A stretch of DNA of 46,347 nt. Source: Acidobacteriota bacterium (lineage in GTDB: Bacteria; Acidobacteriota; Terriglobia; Acidiferrales; UBA7541). Below are positions 15,021 through 17,458 of the stretch, piece by piece. The notes under the pieces are model-generated. The model saw only the letters and a program-made list of their open reading frames with translations. It was not told where the DNA came from and ran no database searches. Where the stretch lies: assembly GCA_003225315.1 (NCBI GenBank), contig QHZD01000006.1, positions 1 to 46,347 of the forward strand, read 5' to 3'. Positions within the stretch are counted from its first letter, which is position 1, and every line of letters begins with the position of its first letter. Made by a program: the position numbers and the translations under genes.

Positions 15021-16163
15021 CTATTTCTTACAAGCACCTTGCAGATATGCTTCGATAGCGATGTCGGGACCGAACTGCTGTGTGCGAACGTTGCTCAGCG
15101 GAGAAAGATTCAGTTTCGAAGCAACGGCAAGAGGGACGCGATTGTCGCCGGCGATCTTCGGCGCGTAGAAGAGAAAAAGTCTGTGAACCATGCCGGCGGC
15201 GAGCGCCGCGCCATTGAGCGTCGGGCCGGCTTCCAAGAGCACACTCAAGATTTCGCGGCTGCCCAGTTCTGCAAGCACTGAAAGCAGATCGATACGGCCA
15301 TCTTTTGCCTTTGTGGGTACCAGTTCGATGCCTGCGTCTTGCAGTTTGCGTGCCTTCACAGAATTCAATGGACCGGCCGTGAAAACGAGGAGATCGTCGT
15401 CCGATGTTTTTACAATGCGCGATTTTGGCGAGAGCCGCAGCTTTGAATCGAGAACGACGCGTAGGAGTCGCTTACGGCGCGGAAGGCCGCTGCGATCGGT
15501 TAGCAGAGGATCATCAGCCAGGATCGTGCCGATGCCGGTCAGGAGCGCATCTGAAGTGTGGCGCATCCGATGAACTTCGGCTCGCGATTCTTCCGAGGTA
15601 ATCCAGGCGTCATGGCTGCGTTTGCCGCTTTTGCCGGATTTCTTTTTGGATTGCGGAAGAGCGAGCTGACCGTCAAGCGTCAGCGCGGATTTTAGCGTGA
15701 CGAATGGTCTCTTCGTGCGAATCCAGCAGGCAAAGGCTTCGTTGAGGCAGCGAGCCTCTTCTTCGCAGACGCCAGTGAAGACTTCGATGCCCGCTGCTCG
15801 CAGGCGCTCGAATCCGTGGCCGGAATTGACCGGGTTAGGGTCTTCCATCGCCGCGACGACACGCTGAACTCCCGCGGCGATAATCGCTTCCGTGCAAGGC
15901 CCGGTACGTCCGGTGTGATTGCAGGGTTCGAGCGTGACATAGAGCGTCGCGCAGCGCGCCTTCTCCTCGGCCGTTTTCAGCGCGACGATTTCCGCATGGT
16001 CGCGCCACTCGTACTGATGAAAACCCTCGCCAACAATCTGGCCCTCGCGAACGATGACGCAACCCACCATGGGATTCGGGCTGGCGAGGCCGGTGCCTTT
16101 GCGGGCCAGCGCCAGCGCGTGTTGCATGAAGTGTTGATCGTGAGATGAGAAAGAATTGGGCAT
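15021..16163 (-). CDS. ribD: Bifunctional riboflavin deaminase/reductase RibD
   Basis: A 380-residue, two-domain enzyme for the second and third steps of riboflavin synthesis. The N-terminal deaminase (1-145) has the zinc ligands in HAEIVAL and PCNHTGRTGPC. The C-terminal reductase (from about 165) begins at FVTLKSALTLDGQLALP, and a Lys/Ser-rich insert (SKKKSGKSGKRS) follows this strand, longer than usual. It lies 10 bp after the small barrel protein gene and so is probably transcribed with ftsY. Confidence 0.95.
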   Translation of the reverse strand: MPNSFSSHDQHFMQHALALARKGTGLASPNPMVGCVIVREGQIVGEGFHQYEWRDHAEIVALKTAEEKARCATLYVTLEPCNHTGRTGPCTEAIIAAGVQRVVAAMEDPNPVNSGHGFERLRAAGIEVFTGVCEEEARCLNEAFACWIRTKRPFVTLKSALTLDGQLALPQSKKKSGKSGKRSHDAWITSEESRAEVHRMRHTSDALLTGIGTILADDPLLTDRSGLPRRKRLLRVVLDSKLRLSPKSRIVKTSDDDLLVFTAGPLNSVKARKLQDAGIELVPTKAKDGRIDLLSVLAELGSREILSVLLEAGPTLNGAALAAGMVHRLFLFYAPKIAGDNRVPLAVASKLNLSPLSNVRTQQFGPDIAIEAYLQGACKK

Positions 16164-16173
16164 TATCTAGAAT

Positions 16174-16467
16174 TCATTTCGCTCCAGGTGCAACCCACCA
16201 GATTTCCGTTCCCGCCGGAACGTCGGCCTCCGTTACGTTCGGCGGCAGTCTAAGCGGCCAGTAACTCTTCCCATCTAGCCCTCTGGCATGTTCGATTCCG
16301 GCGAGATTTGTCTTGAGCACTGCTCCATCAGGGCGGCGCAATTCGATTTGATCTCCCATCCGAATGCGGTTTGGTGGTCCTTCTTTCGTAAGTCCGGGAA
16401 ATACGCAAAGAGGCCTGCCCGTAATCCGGACTATGTCTTCGACTTTGGAGATGAAGAAAGGCTCCAT
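16174..16467 (-). CDS. Free-standing EF-Tu domain II-like beta-barrel protein
   Basis: A 97-residue protein of no named family that I recognise. Its sequence follows the second domain of EF-Tu: PFFISKVEDIVRITGRP matches the PFLxPVEDVFxIxGRG strand, IRMGDQIELRRPDG the IKVGDEVEIVG turn, and NVTEADVPAGTEIWW the end of the barrel. It has no GTPase domain. It lies between ftsY (its ATG is 20 bp past the ftsY stop) and ribD. A TTG at 16494, overlapping the ftsY stop, would add nine residues. Fold assignment is inference from motif pattern; function is unknown. Confidence 0.6.
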   Translation of the reverse strand: MEPFFISKVEDIVRITGRPLCVFPGLTKEGPPNRIRMGDQIELRRPDGAVLKTNLAGIEHARGLDGKSYWPLRLPPNVTEADVPAGTEIWWVAPGAK

Positions 16468-16486
16468 AGAGGGATATTTGCGACTC

Positions 16487-17458
16487 CTAGTCAAACAGGG
16501 AATTGGCGTAGGTTTCCGCGTCGAAGGGAACCATGTCGTTGATCTGCTCGCCGGTGCCGACGAAACAGATCGGCAGGCTCAGCTCGCGCGAGATGGCGAC
16601 AACGATACCGCCCTTGGCCGTGCCATCGAGTTTGGTGAGGATGATTCCGGTGACGCCCACGGTGGAAGTGAATTCGCGCGCTTGCGCAAGACCGTTCTGC
16701 CCGGTGGTGGCGTCGAGAACGAGCAGCACGTCATGCGGCGCGCCGGGAATCACTTTTGCGGCAGTGCGCTTCATCTTTTCCAGCTCGGCCATGAGGTTGG
16801 ATTTGGTGTGGAGGCGTCCCGCGGTATCCACGATAACGACGTCAGACGAGCGCGCTTTGGCGGCGGCGACCGCGTCGTACACAACTGCGGCAGGGTCGGC
16901 GCCGGATTTCTGCTTGATGACCTCGATGCCGTTGCGCTGCGCCCAGATTTCCAATTGTTCGACGGCGGCGGCGCGAAACGTGTCCGCAGCGCAGAGCACC
17001 ACGCTGCGGCCCTCCTGGCGCAGGCGGTTTGCGAGCTTTCCGATGCTGGTGGTCTTGCCCGCCCCGTTGACGCCGACGATGAAAATCACGCGCGTGCCGC
17101 TGCCATTCTGTGACGTGGAAATGCCGCTCCCGGTGGCCACGTCGGGCCGGACGGGCGTGTTCAGAATTCGAATGATGTGCGACTTGATCTCTTGTTTGAG
17201 GTGCGCGGCATCGGCGAGCGCGTTGCGGTCCATTTTTTCGCGCACCGCATCCAGAATCTCGCGCGTTGGCTTCACGCCCAGGTCGGCGGAGAGCAGCGCC
17301 GTCTCCAGATCCTTCAGGATCGAGGGATCGATCTTCCGCTCGCCAAGAAAGATCGTATCGACAGTCTCGGAAAGCGCCGCCTTGGTCTTGCTGATGGAAT
17401 TCTTCAGCCGCTCGAGAAGCGTCGGCTCCGGTTCATTCTTGCCAAAAAGTGAAATCAT
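16487..17458 (-). CDS. ftsY: Signal recognition particle receptor FtsY
   Basis: A 323-residue SRP-type GTPase. An N helical domain (1-85) is followed by the G domain with P-loop GVNGAGKTTSIGKLA, DTAGRLHTKSNLMAEL and TKLDGTAKGG. It lacks the long acidic A domain of E. coli FtsY, as is common outside the gammaproteobacteria. It docks SRP-bound ribosomes at the membrane for co-translational insertion. It appears to head a unit ftsY - barrel protein - ribD. Confidence 0.96.
   Translation of the reverse strand: MISLFGKNEPEPTLLERLKNSISKTKAALSETVDTIFLGERKIDPSILKDLETALLSADLGVKPTREILDAVREKMDRNALADAAHLKQEIKSHIIRILNTPVRPDVATGSGISTSQNGSGTRVIFIVGVNGAGKTTSIGKLANRLRQEGRSVVLCAADTFRAAAVEQLEIWAQRNGIEVIKQKSGADPAAVVYDAVAAAKARSSDVVIVDTAGRLHTKSNLMAELEKMKRTAAKVIPGAPHDVLLVLDATTGQNGLAQAREFTSTVGVTGIILTKLDGTAKGGIVVAISRELSLPICFVGTGEQINDMVPFDAETYANSLFD

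Follow-up and report, generated by a model that had tools for sequence, protein, structure and literature searches.

A contig assigned to an Acidobacteriota bacterium (QHZD01000006.1) carries, between ftsY and ribD, a small open reading frame (ORF) whose product follows the strand order of a single domain of the elongation factor EF-Tu. The window analysed here is the whole stretch of 46,347 nucleotides in which this ORF lies. In EF-Tu, domain II is joined to a G domain and to domain III, whereas the small protein stands alone. What is such a barrel doing as a gene of its own, and does its place beside the gene of the SRP receptor say anything about its function?

The ftsY-ribD junction and the fold of its small protein

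The ORF occupies positions 16174 to 16467 of the minus strand and encodes, in an intact frame from an ATG, 97 amino acids; the longest available start would give 106. We refer to the product as P0001 and describe it as a standalone EF-Tu domain II-like protein on the strength of its frame, of a structural model with its fold match, and of a hold-out profile. Its neighbours, both also on the minus strand, were identified by Pfam as ftsY upstream (16487 to 17458; SRP54 GTPase domain, E 2e-77) and ribD downstream (15021 to 16163; RibD_C and deaminase domains). The 97-residue ORF that a sequence-only reading of the window had placed between these two genes is real, and the length of its frame bears out the further statement of that reading that a GTPase domain and a domain III are absent; P0001 does not belong to the translation GTPases, that is, to EF-Tu proper. 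Three segments of the gene, all revealed by alignment, serve as landmarks below. Codons 9 to 18 (VEDIVRITGR; 16414 to 16443, minus strand) correspond to the VED-F-I-GRG strand of EF-Tu domain II, codons 43 to 48 (LRRPDG; 16324 to 16341, minus strand) form the second conserved block of the family, and codons 82 to 90 (DVPAGTEIW; 16198 to 16224, minus strand), also found by motif search, represent the family signature DVPxGTE[IVM]W that was used as bait for further members.

RibD searches of 41 genomes yielded 30 loci, the window's included, and the other 29 were compared with it. None contains a copy of the ORF (tblastn, E 1e-4), while ftsY stands beside ribD in 28 of them, L034 showing none. 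The gap between the two genes is shorter than 40 nt in 25 loci, 145 to 201 nt in three (L021, L025 and L031) and 326 nt in the window. At 13 loci the junction DNA itself was inspected: in 12, ribD apparently starts about 20 nt or less past the end of ftsY, the spacer being longer in L025. The inserted stretch, absent at this junction in the relatives, spans 16164 to 16486 (minus strand). In the window, all the DNA that follows the ftsY stop is new until ribD reaches the first codons it shares with the relatives, so that the start of ribD has been replaced as well. Scans of the insert found no promoter or terminator on the strand of the gene and no direct repeats. The gene is a private insertion of about 320 bp, present as a standalone gene in one of 36 genomes of the genus, several of which are incomplete, and it was very probably acquired laterally. 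These counts do not support the functional tie to ftsY that had been suggested from gene order: linkage of the ORF to ftsY is not conserved in the relatives, and a conserved partnership with ftsY can be rejected.

An AlphaFold2 model of P0001 built from 33 sequences reached a pLDDT of 89.3 and a pTM of 0.80. Foldseek placed V/A-ATPase chains first with this model and EF-Tu at rank 8 (E 0.10), with nothing below E 0.001, and against viral models it again gave no row below that value. In a second look with VIA-align at 997 Foldseek chains, EF-Tu domain II came first (Z 9.7, rmsd 2.5, 81 residues, 27% identity); the top 29 rows were all EF-Tu, counting reconstructed ancestors and Q-beta replicase fusions, and IF2 and eEF1A ranked shortly after. 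A profile of the family described below, run against all PDB sequences, returned 60 rows to E 10 (best E 1.4e-5), 58 of which are EF-Tu or chains containing EF-Tu, matched at domain II, the other two being uteroglobin constructs. When the family without P0001 was compared, profile to profile, with 45 EF-Tu domains II drawn from the fetched genomes, the two aligned over 79 columns with a probability of 97.3 and an E value, for a single comparison, of 2.5e-11. With the EF-Tu profile alone, P0001 scored 10.5 bits (E 0.033); no shuffle out of 500 exceeded 5.4.

As a single sequence, P0001 drew only one row from Pfam, Peptidase_U32_C over residues 33 to 61 at E 0.26, and phmmer against the PDB gave EF-Tu at E 1.1, ranked below unrelated molecules; together with Foldseek alone, these searches would have missed the kinship to EF-Tu. 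The C-terminal domain of peptidase family U32 (PF16325) is a barrel of similar kind, but this identity was rejected for P0001, the match being weak and below cut-off and EF-Tu far better supported. The AlphaFold2 model, the VIA-align ranking and the profiles, by contrast, confirm the fold and strand order that the sequence-only reading had assigned, namely a translation-factor barrel, colinear with EF-Tu domain II and matching it best. P0001 and its family are almost certainly homologues of that domain.

A patchy family of standalone domain II proteins

No family was assigned to P0001 by NCBIfam, PHROGs or PADLOC, the latter two queried with the window protein only, and a protein search of 61 relative genomes returned the window alone at E 0.001. 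In the 36 genus genomes, single-sequence searches turned up four further rows (E 0.03 to 0.09), judged to be chance by inspection; in 396 genomes of the phylum the rows were weak, and two were recognisable as modules of EF-Tu domain II. The strongest of the phylum rows (G347, E 2.5e-5) was dropped, since its match is interrupted by two stops and its letters lack the barrel pattern. Early searches with P0001 of viral contigs, genome contigs, plasmids (E 1) and phages found no relative, and a two-row profile over 201 relatives had, beyond E 0.02, no match but the window. A Variovorax plasmid stretch from a loose tblastn search (E 1) is a true homologue, a small gene unannotated in that collection, whose product shares 39% identity with P0001 over 87 columns (E 2e-8 as a single comparison). 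Plasmid matches in Sinorhizobium and Allochromatium, the second of which sits in repeated sequence at a cas1f locus, had no member-like frame and were discarded.

The common end of these proteins, DVPxGTE[IVM]W, was recast as a DNA pattern and used to search for members. The window contains a single match to the pattern and 100 shuffles contain none; five stretches from viral contigs and 48 from genome contigs were retrieved with it. With all frames read, 32 of the 48 and two of the five proved to encode small proteins of one family. Thirteen genome stretches were unrelated or had no frame with the motif, and three viral stretches were not members; L112 (no usable start), L081 and L107 (partial match) fit the family profile and were left out of the alignment. 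Record titles of the members include Planctomycetes, Myxococcales, Bacteroidetes and Verrucomicrobia, as well as Cyanobacteriota or Melainabacteria, Armatimonadaceae, Acidobacteria and Proteobacteria. The resulting alignment of 36 sequences (32 genome-contig members, the two viral ones L068 and L069, Variovorax and the window) keeps VED-F-I-GRG, LRRPDG and DVPxGTE[IV]W.

Since members had been picked by their end motif, membership was tested on sequences from which the motif had been cut off. A hold-out profile of the 34 other members scored the equally cut P0001 at 50.3 bits (E 2.2e-14), against 10.6 bits for the best of 2000 shuffles and 9.4 bits for the best unrelated frame of the window; with a score so far above the shuffles, the strand pattern of P0001 is more than chance. 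Searched against Pfam to E 1, none of the 36 members matched GTP_EFTU_D2 (PF03144) or reached its curated cut-off, and three families were each touched by one member (best E 0.0043). Against NCBIfam, 8 to 11 of them touch EF-Tu models at E up to 1, the best at 4e-4. The family is an unnamed, patchy set of standalone domain II proteins from many phyla, and the homologues of P0001 thus extend well beyond its close kin.

Within its own genome, the family profile recovered the P0001 gene, two EF-Tu frames (400 and 397 aa) and one chance row at E 0.85. The other genus rows among the matches listed are frames of at least 262 aa matched at the place of domain II, as EF-Tu would be. The profile finds matches in 156 of the 396 genomes sampled from the phylum; among the matches listed there are at least three standalone members (G000, G255 and G253), and the other judgeable ones are EF-Tu or EF-Tu modules by frame length or reading. 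The 33 host genomes of the motif matches (L076 left out) mostly hold one copy, with three in G583 and four in G587. Around two of these hosts the sampling was widened. The phylum of G590 has matches at E 1e-6 in 12 of 386 genomes, only that of G590 being standalone and the others lying in frames of 410 to 419 aa, while the class of G583 has them in 12 of 382, ten with standalone members and two whose rows, 408 and 412 aa long, were regarded as EF-Tu.

Several other settings of the domain were seen. Read by eye, a 220-aa frame at L125 (G427) begins like a signal peptide and continues with domains II and III of EF-Tu, the G domain being absent; it is possibly a secreted EF-Tu fragment, and G163 has a frame as long. 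At L054 (G440, about 1327-1767) a zinc ribbon is fused to an EF-Tu domain II barrel in about 147 aa (Pfam GTP_EFTU_D2, E 6.3e-6, slightly under cut-off), and at L040 (G356, 1060-1779) a stretch that is both lipoprotein-like and Ig-like shares its frame with an EF-Tu domain II, either through a true fusion or through a join made in assembly. At L089 (5465-7963) a family gene lies between trpB and trpA, like the ftsY-ribD insertion of the window, and at L082 one lies behind hpnH.

Gene order and a toxin-like partner

An all-against-all comparison of neighbours over 36 loci brought out one adjacent gene common to several of them, namely to four loci from Cyanobacteriota, Melainabacteria and Obscuribacterales records. 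In the Obscuribacterales-like class to which G583 belongs, a toxin-like C-terminal domain directly precedes 13 of the 16 distinct family genes; outside the class it precedes none of 36 distinct members. The tally is of distinct member sequences of the fetched loci, with L207 counted in the class and with L125 and some second copies in host genomes left out, and at least 400 nt of upstream sequence was present for 37 of the 38 sequences tallied outside the class (L207 and L125 still being among the 38). As the genomes of the class are related, the 13 adjacencies are not independent events. The start of the family gene, taken as its first aligned base, falls between -22 and +45 nt from the end of the toxin-like frame.

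The partner proteins measure from 426 to at least 500 aa, four frames running off the locus. Their N-terminal part is variable, and their common C-terminal domain bears KIAALEEFLHGTQ and VKDFM-RH--LLGL. Two of the 13 are short remnants (L093 and L095), and that of L108 is broken into frames. Scans of the partner frames gave only weak rows in Pfam and NCBIfam, and in PADLOC only a weak row at E 0.062. A model of the domain from three sequences is helical (pLDDT 73.9), with a best Z of 6.4 and no clear fold match. Viral contigs did not yield the domain and phages gave nothing beyond E 0.3; one viral contig with EEFLHGTQ was set aside as a chance match. Since the domain has neither a known family nor a clear fold match, its toxicity is something that we infer. 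Over 10 toxin-partner pairs, a Mantel test finds the distances correlated (r 0.78; 1 of 5000 permutations), which fits co-evolution and can also come from shared descent.

Three members of the class have no such domain directly upstream: L203, the second tandem gene of L095, and L207. At L203 (1-1493) the family gene comes third, after a different toxin-like protein and a 97-aa gene; this may be a second kind of pair, in which immunity genes are stacked. At L095 (7106-7869) two family genes stand in tandem behind the remnant of a toxin-like domain.

The domain of L098, used in tblastn against plasmid records, found three Escherichia coli records at 44 to 45% identity (best E 4e-20). The corresponding tip lies behind Rhs core sequence in L216 and L217 and behind a transposase-like stretch in L218; a 95-aa gene, P0003, comes next in all three, its start overlapping the stop of the tip. 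In a locus from one complete E. coli genome (L220), an RHS core protein is followed by the tip, encoded as a separate gene, and this by the small gene. At L216, L217 and L220 the partner domain is an Rhs C-terminal tip. The EEFLHGTQ tip there follows the Rhs core as a frame of its own and, where the locus is annotated, as a separate hypothetical protein, which makes it a displaced tip. Of 5426 complete E. coli genomes, 591 match some part of the 1-kb region and 532 contain 80% or more of it. P0003 looks EF-Tu-like by eye (ILPIKDIFIIAG). It scores an E of about 5 with the family model and 5.3 bits with that of EF-Tu, where the highest of 500 shuffles reached 4.4; its profile alignment covers only 14 columns of EF-Tu, with 1 of 150 shuffles as good, and 12 columns of the family, with 9 of 150 as good.

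Variable N-termini, a common C-terminal domain, the Rhs tip and a coupled small gene together make up the layout of a polymorphic toxin/immunity system. In the Obscuribacterales-like class the family gene mostly takes the place expected of an immunity gene, directly 3' of the toxin-like domain. The window gene does not: its flanks are ftsY and ribD. The absence of a toxin neighbour there, like that of the toxin-like domain upstream of the 36 distinct members outside the class, speaks against the immunity reading.

Function and relation to known systems

For an immunity-type function of the family, argued from gene order, we see the case as evenly balanced. The members of the family, which derives from bacterial EF-Tu domain II and is freed of the GTPase domain and of domain III, would then be immunity proteins against contact or secretion toxins. 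How such a protein might work is more doubtful. Its fold, and the existence of toxins that bind EF-Tu domain II, tentatively suggest mimicry, in which the domain II-like protein would occupy the toxin surface used for EF-Tu; bacteria may have copied the part of EF-Tu gripped by incoming toxins and may now use it as a decoy or antidote. Solitary copies would have spread by lateral transfer, several of them into housekeeping operons. We infer the same function for the orphan P0001: encoded by a solitary gene carried along in the ftsY-ribD operon, it would guard the cell against a toxin from its neighbours. That P0001 is an orphan, laterally acquired immunity protein of an EF-Tu domain II-derived family seems to us plausible, if a little short of an even chance. 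The wider proposal, of a new immunity class from EF-Tu domain II that acts as decoy or antidote, has the unnamed E. coli Rhs tip as its partner and includes the solitary copies as laterally spread orphan shields, is speculative. An orphan immunity protein has been shown to protect against rivals (PMC10539506), and protective orphans of this kind suggest a possible role for toxin-less copies, P0001 included.

The family might instead be a general protein-binding module in defence or regulation, for example an EF-Tu decoy against phage proteins, with immunity confined to the Obscuribacterales-like class, and to this we assign a minor share of the probability. It would accord with the missing upstream toxin-like domain in all 36 distinct members outside the class and with the comparison of 36 loci, which gave no other adjacent gene in common. 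Two members also sit amid housekeeping genes (L089 at trpB/trpA, L082 at hpnH), a third (L124) lies near a XerC/D-like recombinase, and L068 and L069 lie in contigs of the viral collection. Solitary genes, however, are also expected of orphan immunity, and nothing was found that points to a phage target, PADLOC having no match for P0001.

Distinctly improbable is the proposal of the sequence-only reading that the free domain II, aided by its place beside the SRP receptor, serves a translation factor as partner or binds the ends of aminoacyl-tRNA. The VED-F-I-GRG strand of EF-Tu domain II lines the pocket for the CCA end. We take E226, D227, F229, E271 and N285 of EF-Tu to form this CCA/aminoacyl pocket, with E271 as its stacking glutamate and N285 as its asparagine, and G233 and R234 to lie in the same strand. 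In the family alignment the strand is largely kept (E226 and D227 in 25 of 36 each, F229 in 27, G233 in 23, R234 in 24), but the E271 glutamate is kept in only 9 of 36, and the place of the pocket asparagine is a gap in 31 of 36. P0001 has E, D, V, G, R, E and a gap at the places of E226, D227, F229, G233, R234, E271 and N285, and so retains the glutamate but carries V at the F229 place. Judged by its residues, the family keeps the pocket strand and not the full pocket, and with a pocket only partly kept P0001 does not fall among the aminoacyl-tRNA-binding domains II of EF-Tu. The kept strand and the glutamate of P0001 count in favour of the proposal, but the action on aminoacyl-tRNA that it assumes is weakened. 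The patchy spread (one of 36 genus genomes; at least three standalone members among the matches listed for 396 phylum genomes) and the unconserved link to ftsY argue against it too.

The reading of P0001 as a chance open frame or decayed relic could draw on the lack of any homologue found in the 35 other genus genomes and on its GC3, which is 0.53 where ftsY has 0.79 and ribD 0.64 (exbD next door has 0.55). As a chance frame it is refuted by the hold-out E of 2.2e-14 obtained without the signature motif, and given the intact frame and the high-confidence barrel the reading as a whole is extremely unlikely.

If P0001 and its relatives are immunity proteins, a host-derived fold would join the immunity repertoire, antidote action could be explained by imitation of the toxin's cofactor or target, and a partner toxin domain would be named at the Rhs loci of about one tenth of complete E. 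coli genomes. That EF-Tu domain II lives as a free module bears, besides, on how barrels turn into independent proteins. Among the papers listed by searches of the open-licence PMC literature, we recognised none that describes this family or presents a free domain II of EF-Tu in the role of immunity protein.

With EF-Tu domain II (PF03144, GTP_EFTU_D2) the family has in common the fold, the strand order over most of the protein, the VED-F-I-GRG strand and a closing strand with DV.xG; it differs in its signature, DVPxGTE[IVM]W, where EF-Tu has EDVERGQV. PMC9071432 reports that the CDI toxins EC869 and NC101, CdiA-CT tRNases with a BECR fold, bind EF-Tu domain II, the fold that the family copies, whereas the toxin-like domain described here is predicted to be helical and has no sequence or clear fold match. 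The main text of the 2012 survey of polymorphic toxins (PMC3482391), in the form consulted, does not contain the terms EF-Tu, elongation factor or translation factor, and the present family is an EF-Tu-derived barrel. With the immunity proteins of polymorphic toxins (the Imm families; CdiI and RhsI) it shares the position of a small gene directly behind a toxin-like domain, as in 13 of the 16 class members, and it also has copies without such a domain outside that class.
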